A DNA stretch of 28,265 bases from a bacterium. GTDB taxonomy: Bacteria > JAHJDO01. Position 1 is the first letter of the stretch. Each line of letters starts with the position of its first letter. A model generated the notes under the pieces. That model was not told where the DNA came from and did not search any database. It worked only from the letters and a program-made list of their open reading frames with translations. This document shows positions 8,629 through 19,922 of this stretch, in pieces. The position numbers and the translations under genes were made by a program. The stretch is from NCBI GenBank assembly GCA_030611945.1, contig JAUWOV010000009.1, forward strand, positions 1 through 28,265, read 5' to 3'.

Positions 8629-8909
8629 TCAAATTTCTCCATTTTAATTACATTCAGGAAAGCGCTTTGTTCTCTTGTAAGCTTCAATTTATTCATTACA
8701 ACCACATCAATTTTCTCCTCGCATTCCATAAAAAACCTTACAGAAACCTTTTGTGAAAGCCTGAATGCATTTTCCTTAGAAAATATCAGAACATCAATAT
8801 CTCCGCCTTTTTTTGTATCATCTACCCTTGAACCAAACAAATAGACATTTCCATTGATATCCTCAACTGCTTTTCTTAACGCGCTAACTTCTTTCTTATC
8901 TAATCTCAT
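8625..8909 (-). CDS. mntA: MntA-like minimal nucleotidyltransferase antitoxin
   Basis: The 94-residue protein has the minimal nucleotidyltransferase signature: VYLFGSRVDDTKKGGDIDVLIF (about residues 22-43), the GS...DxD pattern, and a third acidic strand EKIDVVVM. In the MntA-HepT system this enzyme AMPylates the HEPN toxin and so acts as the antitoxin. Gene order and the ATGA overlap with hepT support the assignment. GAGAT is the only upstream purine-rich stretch, so the ribosome binding site is weak. It is separated by 42 bp from the AbiEii-like gene and could be transcribed with it. Confidence 0.88.
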   Translation of the reverse strand: MRLDKKEVSALRKAVEDINGNVYLFGSRVDDTKKGGDIDVLIFSKENAFRLSQKVSVRFFMECEEKIDVVVMNKLKLTREQSAFLNVIKMEKFE

Positions 8910-8951
8910 TTATGTTTATTATCTCATTTATTTATAATTAAGAATTTAAAA

Positions 8952-9569
8952 TTAGAAATTTCTCCTTACTTCATCTTCAAAGTATCCCTTGACCTGTTCC
9001 CATGCTATTTCTTTTGACATTTTTGGCATTGTAGTCGCTTCGGCATCTAAAAAATAAACTAAACTCTTCTGAATGTGGACAAGGTTAGAAGCTAAAGTTC
9101 CATACTTACGGTCATAAAGTGATAACATTTCATTTAAGGATATTCCTTTTTGACACATAAAATAAATATCCATAAAATCTCTCTTAATTCCCCTTGAACC
9201 AACGGCATCTATTTTCATCGCTGCGATATCTCGTAAATCAAGAATATTTATACTGAATAAAGATTTAAAAGGAAACAAAACCGGGTAATTATATACAAAG
9301 ATACTGAACTTTACTTCTTCAAAATTACCTAAGATAGTCCCCCAACTTTGCCTGTCTAATTCAAATTTGCCTATTTTTTTTAAAGAACGAATTAACTCCT
9401 CAGCATTAAACTCACGAGGAGTAAAGAAATCTAAATCAACAGAAATCCTATGACCTATCTGTAAAGCGCAGGCTGTGCCGCCTGCCAAATAGGCATTATC
9501 CATCAAATGCGATTTGCCTAATATGGCCAATGCCTTCTTTGTGTTTCCAAATAAGGTTTCTGTAAACAT
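8952..9569 (-). CDS. AbiEii/toxin-family nucleotidyltransferase
   Basis: The 205-residue product matches the PF08843-type nucleotidyltransferase pattern: YLAGGTACALQIGHRISVDLDFFTP (about 28-52), where GG and DxD form the nucleotide-binding site, then LRDIAAMKIDAVGSRGIKRDFMDIYFM (about 112-138), the second conserved block. Members include the AbiEii toxins of abortive-infection systems and the MenT toxins, which modify tRNA ends. The upstream gene, overlapping by 52 bp, is the likely antitoxin. AAGG stands about 4 nt before the ATG. Toxin activity is inferred from family and context. Confidence 0.85.
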   Translation of the reverse strand: MFTETLFGNTKKALAILGKSHLMDNAYLAGGTACALQIGHRISVDLDFFTPREFNAEELIRSLKKIGKFELDRQSWGTILGNFEEVKFSIFVYNYPVLFPFKSLFSINILDLRDIAAMKIDAVGSRGIKRDFMDIYFMCQKGISLNEMLSLYDRKYGTLASNLVHIQKSLVYFLDAEATTMPKMSKEIAWEQVKGYFEDEVRRNF

Positions 9570-9835: not shown

Positions 9836-12148
9836 CTAGAAACTATAAGATATGGAAATGTCAAATCTGCCTTTATGTCTGTCTATACCGTATCCGTAAA
9901 ATAATGTAACGGGTATAGGCATAAGTATTCTTATCCCGGTCCCTATGCTTGTTTTTAGCGAGCCTGAGAAACCCCCTGCGCTTTTCCATGCGTTTCCAGC
10001 ATCATAGAATATTAACCCTCTGATTTTCATAGGACTTTTTGTTGGAGTGTCAGTTGTATCCACCAGAAGATATGAGTATTCCAGATTACCAACTAACATT
10101 GAATTTCCGCCAACATTAACATCGTCCTCTTTAGGTCCTATGCTGCTGTAATCATATCCTCTAACTGTGCTCGGGCCACCTACATGGAATCGCTCATAAA
10201 CCGGAACTTGTTTTGTGCCTCCGTAATTATCAACCACTCCCGCCCTGAAACGAACATTGAACACGGACTTTTTAGTTAGAGGAAAATATTTGCTTGCGCT
10301 GCCTGTTATTTTATAAAAATCCTTATCTCCAAAAAAAGGACCGCCAGCGCACTCTGCAGACACTACATTCACATAACCTTCGGTCGGATCAAGAATATTA
10401 TTTCTATGATCATTTTTTATCTTAGCCGTTATGCTGCTAATAGTTGCTGATCCTTCATCATCCCGTACTACATCAGGAGCGTCATCTGTTAAGCTGCCCA
10501 CATCTACGTTCTCACATTTATACGTAAGAGAGCCTCGCGTGTATTCCGTAAGAGAACGTCCAGCTCTTATGTCTCCGCCGGTTTTGGTTTCTGTCCATTC
10601 TTCTTGATAATAGGTTTTATTGTATAGATCAAACCCCAGAGAAAGAGGCTCATCTCTAAACCACGGCTCTGTAAAGCTCAAAACAAAATTCTGCCTTCTT
10701 GCGCTTATGTCAGCCCGGATACTGGCATACTGACCACCGCCTGAAAAACTTGGAAAGTTCTTGATATCAAAATTCTTCTGCCTAAGCTCTACAAATCCTA
10801 TAGCATTCTCCACTGTGCTGTATCCGCCGCCAAAAGAGAAACTGCCTGTCTTTTTTTCTTCTACATCGCAGATCAAGTCCCTGGTATTTATTTCTTCTGT
10901 TTTCTCATCAGAAAAATCCACTTTGTGAAAATAATCTAAATTCATTAACCTTTGCCTGCTTCGCCTAACCTTTTTTGTATCAAACTTTTCTCCCGGCTTT
11001 ATTCTTACTTCTCTGCGAATAACCTTGTCCTTTGTTTCCAGATTCCCTTTTATAATAACCTGCCGAAGATAGTTAATGCTCCCTTCATATACATTGTACA
11101 CCACATCAACTGTTTTATTTTTATCGTTAATCTGTGTTTCCGGATTGGCATAAGCCTCTATATATCCTCTCTCTCCGTAAAACATTCGCATATTATAAAT
11201 GTCCTTAGAAACAGCATGCCTGCTAAAAACATCGCCTTTTTTCATATCCAATATGCTGATGACCTCCTGAGAAGGTAAATTCTTATTGCCTTTTACAGTG
11301 ATATTGTTTGTGAAATATTTATCTTTTTCATCAATAAGAATTCTTATATACATCTTAGTTCTTGCCTCATTAAAGGTTATATCTGCTTCTTCTATCTCAG
11401 CTTTTATATACCCGGCTCTGTCGTAATAAAGTTTGAGCCGTTTTATGTCTTCTTTTAATTTATCAGGGTCATAATATCCTCTTGGAAACCATTTTAGTCT
11501 GGCTTTTTTGGTTACCATTTGTCTCCTTAGCTTCCAGTTACTGAAATGGCTGTTTCCATCAAAAACAATCTTTTTTATCTTTACTTTATTCCCCTCTTTT
11601 ATATTGATATTGACAACAACTTTGTCGGGTTTCTTCTCCTCAACAGTATGGCTGACAGCAGCTGCATAATATCCGTGTTTTTTGTACAGTTCATATATGG
11701 ATTCATCATTTCTTTTCAGACGTTTCTCGTTATATGTATCTCCTATGACAATAGACATAATCCTCTTTATCTTTTTTAATTTTAATTTCTTATTACCTGA
11801 TATCACAATCTTCTCAATAGCAGGTCTCTCCTGAACAGTAAAAGTAATGTTCAGCCCTCCAAGAAACTCGGAAGCGTCTACAGTTATATCCTGAAAATGT
11901 CCAAGTTTATACAGCGCTTCAATATCTGCGCTTATTGTTTCCTGTAAAAACGGCACTCCTTCTTTAGTCTTTATTCTATTTAGAATAGTTGAAGTACTTA
12001 TTCTGCTATTCCCTTTCACACTTACTTTTGTCACTTTTTTTACATCCTTAGAAGCCTGTTCAGCAATTGCCTCAGAGATGTAGGGTGTGAGACAGGAAAT
12101 AAATAGAAAGAGAAAAATACCTGCGTAACGTTTTTTTGCCATCATCAT
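9836..12148 (-). CDS. bamA: Outer membrane protein assembly factor BamA
   Basis: BamA is the beta-barrel insertase of the outer membrane. The 770-residue chain has a signal peptide (YAGIFLFLFISCLTPYISEAIA). About five POTRA domains follow (residues roughly 38-420; recurring patterns such as VKGNSRISTSTIL, ISGNKKLKLKKIK, FDGNSHFSNWKLR, VKGNKNLPSQEVI and IKGNLETKDKVI). The barrel extends from about 430 to the end. VRGYDYSSIGP is the conserved loop-6 VRGY motif, and the last residue is phenylalanine (SISYSF), the beta-signal. ATGATGATG offers three starts: 12148 overlaps the clpC stop, and 12142 has the best spacing from AGGAGC. In many genomes ompH follows directly; here accessory genes intervene. 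Confidence 0.95.
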   Translation of the reverse strand: MMMAKKRYAGIFLFLFISCLTPYISEAIAEQASKDVKKVTKVSVKGNSRISTSTILNRIKTKEGVPFLQETISADIEALYKLGHFQDITVDASEFLGGLNITFTVQERPAIEKIVISGNKKLKLKKIKRIMSIVIGDTYNEKRLKRNDESIYELYKKHGYYAAAVSHTVEEKKPDKVVVNINIKEGNKVKIKKIVFDGNSHFSNWKLRRQMVTKKARLKWFPRGYYDPDKLKEDIKRLKLYYDRAGYIKAEIEEADITFNEARTKMYIRILIDEKDKYFTNNITVKGNKNLPSQEVISILDMKKGDVFSRHAVSKDIYNMRMFYGERGYIEAYANPETQINDKNKTVDVVYNVYEGSINYLRQVIIKGNLETKDKVIRREVRIKPGEKFDTKKVRRSRQRLMNLDYFHKVDFSDEKTEEINTRDLICDVEEKKTGSFSFGGGYSTVENAIGFVELRQKNFDIKNFPSFSGGGQYASIRADISARRQNFVLSFTEPWFRDEPLSLGFDLYNKTYYQEEWTETKTGGDIRAGRSLTEYTRGSLTYKCENVDVGSLTDDAPDVVRDDEGSATISSITAKIKNDHRNNILDPTEGYVNVVSAECAGGPFFGDKDFYKITGSASKYFPLTKKSVFNVRFRAGVVDNYGGTKQVPVYERFHVGGPSTVRGYDYSSIGPKEDDVNVGGNSMLVGNLEYSYLLVDTTDTPTKSPMKIRGLIFYDAGNAWKSAGGFSGSLKTSIGTGIRILMPIPVTLFYGYGIDRHKGRFDISISYSF

Positions 12149-15680: not shown

Positions 15681-16169
15681 TTAATTCCCCTCCAGCTTTT
15701 TTATCTGGTCACGAATCTCTGCCGCTTTCTCAAACGCTTCCTGCTGAACCGCCTTTTCCATTTCTATCTTCAGCTTTTCAATCTTTGATAAAGTCTGAGC
15801 TTCTTTATCATGCTTAGCAGGCACAACACTGCCAACATGTTTTGTGCTGCCGTGAATCCTCTTTATCAGCGGCTCCAGTTCAGTTTGAAACGCTTTATAG
15901 CATCTGCTGCACCCAAAACGTCCTGTCTCCCGGAAATCCGAAAATAGAAGACCGCAATTATCACACTTTAGATTTTTTTCTTTGCCTTTTGTTTCTACAA
16001 AACCAGCAAGCCCTTTAACAAAATCCGCCATAGAAAAATTCCCAAATTGATCTATTATCTCTTTCTTCCTTGCGCAATCCTCACACAGATGCAGCTCCAC
16101 TGCTTTATTATTGATGATCTCCGTATAATGAACCGTTGCCTCCCGTTCCCCGCAAATCTGACAGAGCAT
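15681..16169 (-). CDS. mcsA: McsA, zinc-binding activator of McsB with UVR motif
   Basis: McsA activates the arginine kinase McsB. The 162-residue protein carries paired CxxC zinc sites: MLCQICGERE and LCEDCARK in the first 35 residues, KCDNCG and GCSRCYKAF in the middle. The UVR coiled coil (KIEMEKAVQQEAFEKAAEIRDQIKKLEG) is at the end. The start is fixed by GGAGGA 7 nt upstream, which lies in the last codons of the preceding small antitoxin-like gene. A diverged copy of its first 13 codons survives at 16962-17000, showing that it once followed ilvE directly. Confidence 0.93.
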   Translation of the reverse strand: MLCQICGEREATVHYTEIINNKAVELHLCEDCARKKEIIDQFGNFSMADFVKGLAGFVETKGKEKNLKCDNCGLLFSDFRETGRFGCSRCYKAFQTELEPLIKRIHGSTKHVGSVVPAKHDKEAQTLSKIEKLKIEMEKAVQQEAFEKAAEIRDQIKKLEGN

Positions 16170-16170
16170 G

Positions 16171-16368
16171 CTATTCCTCCTGGATTTTCACAGCCAAATT
16201 TCTTTTCTTGTTCCTTCGCAAAGCTTGATCAGCAGAAATTTCTATTACTTTATCCTTTTCCCAGATAGCAAGCGTCTGACCAGTTTGCTTGTGTTTCTTA
16301 ATAACATTTTTTACCGCTTGTTGTAGCGCAAGCATTGCTTTGTCTTGCAAAGTTCTTCTTGTCTTCAT
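16171..16368 (-). CDS. Small partner (probable antitoxin) of the zeta-like kinase
   Basis: The 65-residue protein is basic, with a helical first half (DKAMLALQQAVKNVIKKHKQTG) and the segment QTLAIWEKDKVIEISADQAL. Small proteins with 'LAIWxDGKVxxIxA' are regularly encoded beside COG4185 zeta-like kinases, and I infer an antitoxin or accessory role. Its ATG lies 3 bp after the kinase stop, with GAGG in the kinase's last codons as ribosome binding site. Its last codons (CAG GAG GAA TAG) provide the GGAGGA used by mcsA. It therefore links the cassette to the downstream housekeeping gene. Confidence 0.75.
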   Translation of the reverse strand: MKTRRTLQDKAMLALQQAVKNVIKKHKQTGQTLAIWEKDKVIEISADQALRRNKKRNLAVKIQEE

Positions 16369-16371
16369 ATT

Positions 16372-16956
16372 TTACCTCGCCAATTTCTTGATTTCCTCGA
16401 ATGAGGAGACATTTTTAATCGAAACTTTCCCATTTCTACATTTAGCAATTAAAGCTGGAATAGAACCAGCGTTATCAAATAGCATCCATGAATCCAGTAG
16501 AGGCTGGTACAATTTGAAGAAGTTACAGATTGAACGTGTAAAGCGGCGTCTTACGTCTTGGGCCGGAATATTATGCCCGCCGCTGGAGACTCTTTTTTTG
16601 ATACGAGCTATAGCAAGCTCGGGATTCGGAATCCATAGAAAGAAAAGATGAAGTTTGTATCCTCTGCTTTTTAATTTCTTGAAGAGATTAGCATATAATT
16701 TTCCTGCAAGTGTGGACTCAAAAGCAAAATCCACTCCTGCTTTCGCAAACTCATGAATCTGGCTTAATACAAGCTTCCCCGCTTTTATGGCTGCTCTATT
16801 GGGAGAAAAGGGCGACAGCCCTTGAGCGATAAAGTCAGCGTTCACAAAATTCGGGCACTTAACGTAATCGGGTAGAAATTCGCTTGCAAACGTAGTCTTC
16901 CCCGATCCATTCGGGCCAGCTATTATGTACACCCATTTACCCCCTCTGCTTTTCAT
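16372..16956 (-). CDS. Zeta-toxin-like P-loop kinase (COG4185 type)
   Basis: The 194-residue protein has a Walker A at residues 14-22 (GPNGSGKTT) and the motif NADFIAQGLSPFSP, the substrate/acid-base region of zeta-type kinases. FESTLAG and the basic segment ARIKKRVSSGGHNIPAQDVRRRF, an arginine-rich lid, follow, then LLDSWMLFDNAGS. Zeta toxins phosphorylate UDP-N-acetylglucosamine and block wall synthesis, but COG4185 members are diverse and their substrates mostly unknown. It precedes a 65-aa partner. Its start follows a 40-bp copy of the mcsA beginning, the edge of an inserted cassette. No strong ribosome binding site is close; GAGG is 13 nt away. Confidence 0.85.
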   Translation of the reverse strand: MKSRGGKWVYIIAGPNGSGKTTFASEFLPDYVKCPNFVNADFIAQGLSPFSPNRAAIKAGKLVLSQIHEFAKAGVDFAFESTLAGKLYANLFKKLKSRGYKLHLFFLWIPNPELAIARIKKRVSSGGHNIPAQDVRRRFTRSICNFFKLYQPLLDSWMLFDNAGSIPALIAKCRNGKVSIKNVSSFEEIKKLAR

Positions 16957-16961
16957 AACTA

Positions 16962-17039
16962 AACCGTTACCTCACGTTCCCCGCAAATCTGACAGAGCAT
17001 GTTTATTTCTCTCCATTAATAAATTTTTTGAACTTATTT
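16962..17039 (-). other. Scar: diverged copy of the ilvE 3' end joined to the mcsA 5' end
   Basis: 16962-17001 matches 16131-16170 (start of mcsA) at 38 of 40 bases. 17004-17039 matches 19066-19098 (end of ilvE) at 30 of 33 bases, apart from one 3-base insertion. Read on the minus strand the scar ends an ilvE frame (NKFKKFINGEK, stop TAA; the real gene has NKFRKFIGEK). Two bases later it starts MLCQICGEREVTV and then stops. The differences are codon-wise (one whole-codon indel, one synonymous change), as if derived from a working relative. It separates the GHKL-ATPase gene from the kinase gene and records the ancestral ilvE-mcsA neighbourhood. Confidence 0.85.
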
Positions 17040-17089
17040 GTAACTTTCTGTCAATAGTAAAGATTTGACCCATTTTCTCTTTTTCATTA

Positions 17090-19063
17090 TTACTCATACT
17101 TTTCGATTTGTGCCTTAATGGTACTTTTAGGATTATTTAAAAATTTAATTAGTTCACTAAGGACAATTAAATCCATTTCCTTTTGGTTCGTATTCAAATT
17201 CATCATGGTGTGTGTAATTCCATGGTATTCACGATAATTTAGGTTGTCAGGATCGAGCAGAGAAATTATATGGTAATTCTGTTTATACTCTTCTCCTGTT
17301 TCCCAACACACTACAATACTAATATCATTTGAATTTTTATTGCCATTTTCAATGTCCTCTATCAACCCATCTAGAGAATATTTATATTCAATAATTCTCG
17401 GTGAACTGCTAAACGGTAATTCCAAATCATCAATAACAGATTCATCTGCTCCCAAAGGATTTTGTTCTTCATCATAGGTATAATGTTCTTTAGGTGGGTC
17501 AAGGACCACTCTGATGAGTCCATCATAAGGTAGTCTCTCATTTGTAGCCATAACTCTAAGTCCGCGAATAACTCCACCAGCTAACAATTGATTAAACAAT
17601 GCAATTACATCTTGTTCTCTTGTTGGAAGTGATGTTATTGAGATTTTTTTAGACGGGAAAAAGAAGTTCTCATTGATTATTTCAAGTGGATTGGAACTTT
17701 CATGCTCTGACATTTCTTTTTTCCAATCATCAACTTTTGTCTCTCGTTTTAGATTAGGAGTGCTTCCTGTGTTCACTCTTAAACAACGTTTAATTTTTAG
17801 AAGAGGACCATCGGCTATTTTCTTCGAAAGTTCTTTAGCGAATTCAACTATGTCACTTTGAAAGCCTTTCCTTCCTAGGTCTGGGCTACATTTGTCAAAA
17901 TGAATGAGAATATGAATTTGATTCTGTCTACCAGTATTTCTATTTAAAGGGATTTGAATTGTTTCTCCTTGAGGCATGTTGTTAGCGGCAATTTGAATGC
18001 CTCCGTACAGAATTGAAACACCTTTTCGAACATTGAGTTTAGTATTTATGGCTTCCCAAATTTTCAGAGAGTATACATAAACAACGTATATCCCCGGATT
18101 GTGTTTCTCTATAATTTCTTTTTCCTCTTCTGTGAATTTAATCTGACCATTTTTTGCCATGTTTAAAAGTTCGCTATGATCCCATCTTTGGTAAATAGCA
18201 TCAAGGTTTTTAAATTTTAAAGGGAGATTGAAATCTCTTCCTTTTTTCTTAAAAAGCTCTGCCTCCTTATCAGTTATTTCTTTGACAGAAACAGCTTTAG
18301 TTACTGCTGTATGAGCTAAGTAATAGCCAGTTCCTACATTGCTATATTCAGTTTTATTTCCGTGTTCATCAACCACAGAAATATTGATATGAATTTTGTC
18401 ATTCGAGGTAAAAGCACCAAGTCCAGTTTTAACCGAAAGTACCTTAAACCAATTCTCCGCTTTACTAGCAACTAACCATTTTAGTTCACGAGGATGGGTT
18501 GACTTGTCAAATTTCAAGTAAATAGAAACACCTGAACCAATATTTTTAAAATTATCGTCTTTTACTCCTTCTTGATCGGGTTTAATTTTAGGGTTACCTG
18601 AAGGACTTTCATCATCAAGCCAAGCTCTTGCATTTTCCATTTTACCCACTGCAAAGAAATCTCCTGATTTTGTAGCAACTTGGATATAATTAAAACCATA
18701 TGCAAGATAGGTTGCACCGACCCCTTTAGACCCTCTCGTATCTCCTGATTTGAACGAAATGTCCGGACATAGAAATTGTTTAAATTCTTCTTCACTCAAT
18801 CCTACACCGTTGTCCGTTACTATTAGTGAGTTGTCTTGTATATCGACAGTAATCCATATCGTAGGTTTGTATTCCATTTCGCCTTTTTCTATTCTTAATT
18901 CAAGTGAATCCAATGAATTTTGAATTAACTCGCAAAATGGATCATACCAACCCACATAAGAACTTAGAATGTTCTTTAGTTCTCTTTTTTGAGCTAACAC
19001 AGCAACACTTGTGTTAGCGTTATCCTTAGCTTTTAATGGGTCAAATGCTTCAAATTTATTCAC
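17090..19063 (-). CDS. Large GHKL (HSP90-like) ATPase with possible C-terminal PD-(D/E)XK nuclease domain
   Basis: Starting at GTG 19063 (GGAG 9 nt upstream; TTG 19078 also possible) the protein has 657 residues. The N-terminal 200 or so are a GHKL ATP-binding domain: N-box ELIQNSLDSLE (about 45-55), DNGVGL (84-89, aspartate for adenine) and GSKGVGATYLA (about 111-121, ATP lid glycines). A long middle region follows (YVVYVYSLKIWEAIN, RKGVSILYGGIQIA, then PLNRNTGRQNQ). The C-terminal third has PYDGLIRVVLDPP, IIEYKYSLDGLIED and DISIVVCWETG. D514, E559 and K561 with a following beta strand could form a PD-(D/E)XK nuclease core. The layout recalls prokaryotic MORC-like ATPases and conflict-system proteins; I do not recognise a named system. 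It sits in a cassette between ilvE and the scar. Confidence 0.8.
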   Translation of the reverse strand: MNKFEAFDPLKAKDNANTSVAVLAQKRELKNILSSYVGWYDPFCELIQNSLDSLELRIEKGEMEYKPTIWITVDIQDNSLIVTDNGVGLSEEEFKQFLCPDISFKSGDTRGSKGVGATYLAYGFNYIQVATKSGDFFAVGKMENARAWLDDESPSGNPKIKPDQEGVKDDNFKNIGSGVSIYLKFDKSTHPRELKWLVASKAENWFKVLSVKTGLGAFTSNDKIHINISVVDEHGNKTEYSNVGTGYYLAHTAVTKAVSVKEITDKEAELFKKKGRDFNLPLKFKNLDAIYQRWDHSELLNMAKNGQIKFTEEEKEIIEKHNPGIYVVYVYSLKIWEAINTKLNVRKGVSILYGGIQIAANNMPQGETIQIPLNRNTGRQNQIHILIHFDKCSPDLGRKGFQSDIVEFAKELSKKIADGPLLKIKRCLRVNTGSTPNLKRETKVDDWKKEMSEHESSNPLEIINENFFFPSKKISITSLPTREQDVIALFNQLLAGGVIRGLRVMATNERLPYDGLIRVVLDPPKEHYTYDEEQNPLGADESVIDDLELPFSSSPRIIEYKYSLDGLIEDIENGNKNSNDISIVVCWETGEEYKQNYHIISLLDPDNLNYREYHGITHTMMNLNTNQKEMDLIVLSELIKFLNNPKSTIKAQIEKYE

Positions 19064-19064
19064 A

Positions 19065-19922
19065 CTATTTCTCTCCAATAAATTTCCTGAACTTGTTTAT
19101 CAGAAGCGCTGTGATTTTTCCGGGCTTTCCGTTTCCTATTTCTCTTCCATCAACTTTTACTACCGGAATAAGCTCAGCTGCCGTGCCTGTAAGAAAACAT
19201 TCATCAGAAGTATATACCTCATATTTTGAGAAAATAAGTTCTTTAACCTTCAAGCCTTCCTGCTCGGCAATCTTTATAACTATCCCTCTTGTAATCCCAT
19301 TCAATGCGCCAATGGATGTAGGCGGAGTGATAAGAGTCTCATTTCTATATATGAATATATTATCCCCACTGCATTCAACAACGTTGCCGGAGGAATTCAG
19401 CATTAGCGCTTCGTTAGCGCCGGCATTTACCGCTTCAATCTTAGCGAGGATATTATTTAGATAATTCATGGATTTTATCTGGGGATTTAGAGCGCTGACA
19501 GGTGTCCTTTGCGTAGATGCAGTTATGATCTCTATTCCTTTCTTATAAAGTTCTTCCGGATAAAGAGCTATTTTGTTAACAATAATAACAATTGATTGTT
19601 TTGGACACTTTTTTGGATCAATACCAAGATCCCCTATGCCTCTTGTTATTATCAATCTTACATATCCATCCTTTAATCCATTAACTTTATGAGTTTGCTT
19701 AACAGCATCTTTGATTTCGTTCTTTGATAACGGTATTTTTAATCTAATTGCTTTTGCAGAATCATAAAGCCTGTTTATGTGTTCATCCAGCATAAAGATA
19801 TTGTTATTATATATCCTGATTCCCTCAAAAACTCCATCTCCGTACAAAAACCCGTGATCATATACAGAAACGTTTGCCTTCTCTTTTGGAAAGAATTCCC
19901 CATCAATATAAACCTGCATCAT
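19065..19922 (-). CDS. ilvE: Branched-chain-amino-acid aminotransferase-like PLP enzyme (class IV)
   Basis: The 285-residue protein is a fold-type IV aminotransferase: YIDGEFFPKEKANVSVYDHGFLYGDGVFEGIR is the family opening, and RLIITRG and SLNPQIKSMNYLNN-like residues (ALNPQIKSMNYLNN) surround the PLP lysine. ECSGDNIFIY and GITRG match the IlvE signature. It probably interconverts branched-chain amino acids and 2-oxoacids, supplying ketoisovalerate metabolism next to panB/panC. D-amino-acid aminotransferase or aminodeoxychorismate lyase are close relatives and cannot be fully excluded. GAGGAG precedes two ATGs (19922 and 19919); 19919 has the better spacing. Its last codons are duplicated in the scar at 17004-17039. 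Confidence 0.85.
   Translation of the reverse strand: MMQVYIDGEFFPKEKANVSVYDHGFLYGDGVFEGIRIYNNNIFMLDEHINRLYDSAKAIRLKIPLSKNEIKDAVKQTHKVNGLKDGYVRLIITRGIGDLGIDPKKCPKQSIVIIVNKIALYPEELYKKGIEIITASTQRTPVSALNPQIKSMNYLNNILAKIEAVNAGANEALMLNSSGNVVECSGDNIFIYRNETLITPPTSIGALNGITRGIVIKIAEQEGLKVKELIFSKYEVYTSDECFLTGTAAELIPVVKVDGREIGNGKPGKITALLINKFRKFIGEK

Follow-up and report, generated by a model that had tools for sequence, protein, structure and literature searches.

The window analysed here is a stretch of 28,265 nucleotides that forms one complete contig (G000:C40) of a bacterial genome (G000; 1.66 Mb in 119 contigs, 91% complete). It carries two gene cassettes between ilvE and mcsA, and the 78 bp that separate these cassettes join a copy of the end of ilvE to a copy of the start of mcsA. 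It is probable that both cassettes are insertions with long (variable) target duplication at an ancestral ilvE-mcsA junction. Among the genomes compared, the phylum is represented by five species that all belong to one genus, namely G000 and the sister species G001-G004.

A doubled gene boundary between ilvE and mcsA

On the coding (-) strand, which holds all features described below for the window, the gene order is panC, ilvE, a GHKL ATPase gene, the scar (ilvE tail, 2 bp, mcsA head), a zeta-like kinase gene, a gene for a 65-aa partner, mcsA, mcsB and clpC. Both flanking genes are intact. The upstream gene ilvE (19065..19922) encodes a class IV branched-chain aminotransferase (Pfam Aminotran_4, E 1.6e-61) with orthologues that are 84-91% identical in the four sister species. 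The downstream gene mcsA (15681..16169) encodes a protein-arginine kinase activator (NCBIfam McsA, E 1e-45, below the model cut-off), and its orthologues in the sister species are 84-88% identical. Cassette 1 consists of the gene for a GHKL (Hsp90/HATPase-like) ATPase (17090..19063; 657 aa from a GTG start) and a tail of 50 bp between the GHKL stop and the scar (17040..17089). Cassette 2 encodes a zeta-toxin-like P-loop kinase of 194 aa (16372..16956; Pfam Zeta_toxin, E 6e-10), followed by the 65-aa partner (16171..16368). The joins between cassettes and flanks are seamless. The real ilvE stop is the TAG at 19065-19067 and the GTG start of the GHKL gene follows 1 bp on, at 19063 (TAG-T-GTG), and the partner gene meets mcsA as TAG-C-ATG.

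The scar (16962-17039) reads AAATAAGTTCAAAAAATTTATTAATGGAGAGAAATAA-AC-ATGCTCTGTCAGATTTGCGGGGAACGTGAGGTAACGGTT on the coding strand. Its first half (17003..17039) is an inner copy of the ilvE tail that ends in an in-frame TAA stop; over about 36 positions it differs from the real ilvE end by four substitutions and one 3-nt insertion, which is the whole-codon indel described in an earlier note on this DNA. The second half (16962..17000), 2 bp past that stop, is an inner copy of mcsA codons 1-13 and is 95% identical to the real mcsA head (16131-16170) over 40 nt. A search of the whole genome with a 91-bp stretch of this sequence gave, apart from the self-match, two hits above background, one to the real mcsA head (E 3e-12) and one to the real ilvE end (E 8e-4). 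The score of the ilvE-tail alignment (24) was reached in none of 5000 dinucleotide shuffles, in which the maximum was 18. It is near certain that the scar is real and far beyond a chance match, and its composition as given in the earlier note is confirmed by the alignments, the genome search and the shuffles.

The outer, functional copies of both duplications were also located, and the duplication on the mcsA side is longer than the 33-40 bp proposed before. Alignment with the scar places the outer copy of the ilvE tail at 19065..19100, and the duplicate measures about 38 bp. On the mcsA side the outer copy (16131..16179) is about 50 bp long (90% identity over 50 bp) and includes the ilvE-derived GGAG..TAGC ahead of the ATG, as this duplication extends into the ilvE Shine-Dalgarno/stop region (GAGAAATAAAC versus GAGGAATAGC). 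We conclude with high confidence that there were two insertions, each with one flank duplicated; the layout and the duplications support this part of the earlier note. Past the 13 mcsA codons the scar continues as TAG-TT-ATG, of which the ATG is the zeta start codon, and the TAG therefore creates a mini-open reading frame (ORF) of 13 codons (16959-17000) that abuts the zeta gene. Since its stop lies two bases short of the zeta start, such a leader peptide could couple translation of the zeta kinase.

The earlier note supposed that ilvE and mcsA were once adjacent, and genomes outside the genus bear this out. In nine genomes or contigs (L017, L018, L020, L021, L028, L030, L032, L043 and L044) mcsA is directly preceded by an ilvE homologue at a spacing of about 10-160 bp, and the adjacency is therefore old. 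Within the genus, the ilvE-mcsA junction is an insertion hotspot, and the cargo in G001 and G002 is quite different. In G001 it holds about 7 kb of other genes, i.e. a 161-aa gene of apparent PIN type, genes for large secreted proteins and an ORF6N-like gene, and in G002 a two-gene unit with a DUF6036 nucleotidyltransferase. In G003 and G004, ilvE and mcsA lie apart and mcsA follows a pyruvate-phosphate-dikinase-like gene. The G001 locus (L045) also contains an 81-bp stretch that occurs at 8883-8960 and 9455-9533 (70% identity); it is the end of the ORF6N-like gene, repeated just upstream of that gene. The ORF6N-like gene lies directly before mcsA, and the repeat may be a further flank duplication at the hotspot.

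Recurrence and age of the duplications

To place the window among other loci of its genome, 0.79 Mb of G000 (the window and 60 further stretches, about half of the genome) was compared with itself. This sample contained 18 short direct repeats, compared to none in three dinucleotide shuffles. After removal of multi-copy repeats, six loci with seven events of the window-type layout were left, the window included. In addition to the ilvE tail with the GHKL gene and the mcsA head with the zeta-partner pair, these are the dnaJ tail with AbiEi-AbiEii (54-bp duplicate), the lolA head with a ParE-YoeB-like toxin and Phd-YefM antitoxin, a glycosyltransferase tail with a methyltransferase gene (L116), the vanZ head with a DUF4143 ATPase, and a DUF2442 gene with a 66-bp intergenic repeat on both sides. 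The lengths of the duplications vary (about 35, 38, 50, 54, 66, 75 and 81 bp). Among the sister species, G002 has an AbrB-like/PIN (VapBC-like) pair between 61-bp repeats, and lolA leaders are duplicated in G004. In the latter genome (L217, G004:C31, 7402-9560) the lolA promoter/leader is repeatedly duplicated around small cassettes; each sister species has a different region upstream of lolA, which is apparently a second hotspot.

Several candidates were discarded as multi-copy or REP-like (L099, L104, L112, L117, L122 and part of L201), and the control locus L173 was rejected as a footprint, being a pair of attC-like repeats. At L122 (G000:C115; 11352, 14612 and 15630), one of the discarded loci, the repeat is AT-rich (AATTTTGAAAATTAGGATTTTGAATTTGTTTAG...) and occurs at least 16 times in the sample; in some cases it is read through and forms the beginning of a secreted-protein gene. 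In 0.79 Mb of G000 there were seven events and the mixed control genomes (0.40 Mb) had none, a difference that is only suggestive of an enrichment of the genus over other bacteria. A second control set, chosen for zeta genes, had one footprint, and the phenomenon is therefore not confined to the genus.

The zeta-partner cassette itself recurs beside such repeats in unrelated genomes. In G067, which is nearly closed (4 contigs), the pair lies directly before guaA, and a 78-81 bp copy of the guaA head (84%), closed by an early stop, stands upstream of zeta. In G071 the copies on either side of the pair come from a gene tail and are more diverged (60-71%), and a neighbouring HicBA-looking pair carries the same gene tail again. 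Flanking repeats, clear or diverged, were present at two of 16 zeta loci (L064-L079), and the window is a third case. One could propose from this that zeta/partner-like toxin-antitoxin (TA) cassettes are a mobile unit in their own right. They would enter gene junctions in different phyla by a common route of undefined enzymology that duplicates 35-80 bp of the target, and the event would be promoted or selected by the toxin, as has been suggested for restriction enzymes, or by a host repair response to it. We regard this wider proposal as distinctly unlikely.

Comparison with the sister species also bears on the age of the duplications. For the dnaJ/AbiE insertion in the same genome, the equivalent empty site was found in G002 and G004, where dnaJ is directly followed by a DUF5661-like gene. 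Relative to this empty site, each G000 copy of the 54-bp duplicate has one private change, as expected from duplication in situ followed by drift. The lolA scar has three states in common with its own gene that occur in no sister species, and it has gained a stop codon. In the ilvE-mcsA scar, the mcsA half carries two private changes and the own mcsA gene none, which shows that this half was formed within or very near this lineage. The earlier note suggested that the scar came from a relative during homologous exchange; such a donor origin of the whole scar was rejected for the mcsA half, because both of its changes from the own gene are private.

Proposed route of insertion and its alternatives

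If the cassettes arrived with long target duplication, the ancestral ilvE and mcsA genes would have been 1-2 bp apart, with the ilvE end (GGAGAGAAATAR) doubling as the mcsA ribosome-binding site. The GHKL gene would have entered at the ilvE stop and left the ilvE-tail duplicate of about 38 bp on its far side, and the zeta-kinase/partner unit would have entered just inside mcsA and left the ilvE-stop/mcsA-head duplicate of about 50 bp on its near side. The two cassettes would have been acquired independently, and the stretch between them would be the remnant of the original junction. For the joining step, we infer that foreign DNA joined the target with its sides offset by 35-80 bases, possibly through fill-in of a long staggered break or a template switch to an upstream position, which would leave target sequence on both sides of the insert. 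Ku-type end joining was rejected, since a search of the five genomes for Ku gave no match. In tight operons this outcome would be enriched by selection, since the upstream gene tail and the downstream ribosome-binding site and start are all kept only when the insertion duplicates the junction; this selective enrichment at ilvE-mcsA follows from the sequence layout.

Several points weigh against insertion with target duplication. The earlier note called for relatives with an empty junction or with a single cassette. Adjacent ilvE and mcsA were found in distant genomes only; neither an empty junction nor a single-cassette version occurs among G001-G004, since these carry other cargo (G001, G002) or are rearranged (G003, G004). 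At the glycosyltransferase/methyltransferase locus (L116), the start codon of the cargo lies inside the duplicated tail (ATGATC), and this locus looks like an operon junction that was imported with its flanking gene. The ilvE half of the scar differs from the own gene by four positions plus the 3-nt insertion and from G002 by three plus the insertion. The comparison with relatives' genes, which points to the own lineage for the mcsA half, is therefore ambiguous between the own gene and G002 for the ilvE half, and this half may be older or imported. G001, which has an altered ilvE end, was left out of the comparison table for ilvE; it agrees with the own gene at one position.

The main rival is homology-facilitated illegitimate recombination, in which a donor ilvE-GHKL fragment and, separately, a zeta-partner-mcsA fragment recombined homologously inside the gene and illegitimately at the other end. 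The scar would then be the recipient's gene end, and the donor would have supplied the ilvE tail and mcsA head seen today. This process is known experimentally in transformable bacteria (PMC2884548 and references therein, where Acinetobacter baylyi, Streptococcus pneumoniae and Pseudomonas stutzeri are cited) and likewise leaves foreign genes at the border of a homologous gene with no need for mobile-element enzymes. It accounts for the duplication of whole gene ends and for the seamless joins, including the ATGATC overlap at L116, the codon structure of the ilvE half of the scar is preserved, and at one position this half has the G002 state and not that of the real gene. However, the process requires homology on one side and a donor that carries the flank, which were not seen here. 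In a sliding comparison of ilvE and mcsA with the four sister species, neither gene end showed a step in divergence of the kind expected from a donor, and mosaic gene ends were rejected for this reason. The closeness of the lolA and mcsA scars to their own genes means that a donor, which may still have existed, would have to be conspecific. For the remnants to be shorter than 100 bp in genes of 0.5-1.1 kb, either coincidence or trimming at a later stage would be needed. Overall, one-sided import seems unlikely for the window. A remnant of a second full ilvE-mcsA copy (tandem or ectopic), cut down by deletions on both sides as the cassettes arrived, would also give an ilvE-mcsA junction between the cassettes. 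It needs two deletions that end 37 and 39 bp from the junction, and whole-gene duplication does not predict a short single-flank footprint at several unrelated loci; we consider it very unlikely.

Direct repeats at the 3' end of a gene are typical of integrase islands, and attC-like hairpins occur in the genus (L087, L047), which could imply a tyrosine-integrase type island at gene-end attachment sites or integron gene cassettes. Still, there is no integrase in or beside the inserts. The repeats vary in sequence and length by locus and both gene heads and gene tails are used, with no conserved att core. The integron integrase model TIGR02249 had no match above its cut-off in the five genomes (G000 being 91% complete), the single bp between the partner stop and the mcsA start leaves no room for an attC site, and none was seen on inspection of the 50 bp after the GHKL gene. 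The integron route was rejected for both cassettes on these grounds, and the whole group of integrase-based explanations is highly improbable. Finally, a chimera of strain variants might be suspected in a metagenome assembly of 119 contigs. The joins (GHKL tail to ilvE copy, mcsA copy to zeta) have no sequence overlap able to mislead an assembler, and the pattern is present on several contigs and in an unrelated genome of 4 contigs, so that an artefact of this kind is extremely improbable.

Cassette cargo and relation to known systems

The GHKL gene is absent from the four sister species and from 92 other genomes searched, and relatives of the zeta kinase are sporadic (37 of 385 genomes, 30-70% identity), with only 42% identity in two sister species, at other sites. 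Both cassettes are therefore foreign additions. Relatives of the GHKL protein (48-53%) were found on three viral or prophage contigs. The 53% relative lies in a phage genome (L080, 4998-6971) beside lysis-type genes, a usual spot for accessory genes. This position suggests a putative phage-borne role in defence or competition; PADLOC gave no match for the GHKL gene, and the viral contigs had no match when scanned with the mcsA head. The zeta kinase scores above the Pfam gathering score and has a visible Walker A motif (GPNGSGKTT). The 65-aa partner has no Pfam family match; tblastn matches of 48-51% were found in L064 and L065, and L066, L071 and L072 have small partner ORFs. A similar small gene lies directly downstream of the kinase at other loci, and the partner is presumed to be the antitoxin. 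A Zeta_toxin P-loop kinase with a small partner gene resembles the chromosomal zeta-type TA/UNAG-kinase family; compared to that family, the partner here is located downstream and lacks a Pfam match. No recombinase, transposase or integrase gene was found in or beside the inserts among the ORFs or in a family search of the window, and none of the inverted repeats of the window is placed at the insert ends, which agrees in spirit with the earlier note.

The window's cassettes resemble integron cassettes at secondary sites, as small cassettes within operons of the same genus, and attC-like hairpins are present at other loci of G000 and G003. Unlike those, the two cassettes of the window lack attC and have long flank duplications. 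The hairpins (TAACAAATC...GGCGTTA) stand directly behind single genes in L087 (G000:C14, about 19050-19110) and L047 (G003:C133, about 11880-11990). The first abuts the lolA scar and the second lies between the pyruvate-phosphate-dikinase-like gene and mcsA in G003. Judged by these hairpins, both are integron-type cassettes at scattered chromosomal sites, although none of the five genomes has an integron integrase above cut-off.

The first report of insertion with long target duplication concerned restriction-modification genes of Helicobacter pylori (Nobusato et al., 2000, cited with an illustration in PMC1643837), and citing papers also attribute the mode to Furuta et al. (2010). The duplications are described as "long and variable target duplications" (PMC3031569) and as "in the order of 100 bp" (PMC3874152). 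The window agrees with this class in its small units without transposase or integrase, its direct target duplicates of variable length (tens of bp) and its addiction or defence cargo. The insertion mode, which the earlier note called unusual, is therefore not unusual in kind, since it belongs to a published class (PMC1643837, PMC3874152). The difference from the type cases concerns the cargo and not the mode: TA-like pairs, a GHKL ATPase, AbiE, DUF2442, DUF4143 and others take the place of restriction-modification genes. Further differences are that two insertions are stacked and leave the ancestral gene boundary as a fossil, that the duplications measure 35-80 bp and that the host lineage is uncultured. 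In a limited search of open full texts, no report was found of zeta-type or AbiE-type modules with such target duplication. The window is a doubled instance of a known insertion class with different cargo.

The movement of small defence and addiction modules in the absence of mobile-element enzymes is an unsolved problem. This lineage provides a dense series of footprints in operons, with gene-end duplicates and mostly TA cargo, and with empty sites in sister species for one of them. The junction fossil allows successive insertions at one site to be told apart. The series extends a mode known from restriction-modification genes, and suggests that the survival of insertions is shaped by selection for intact junctions.

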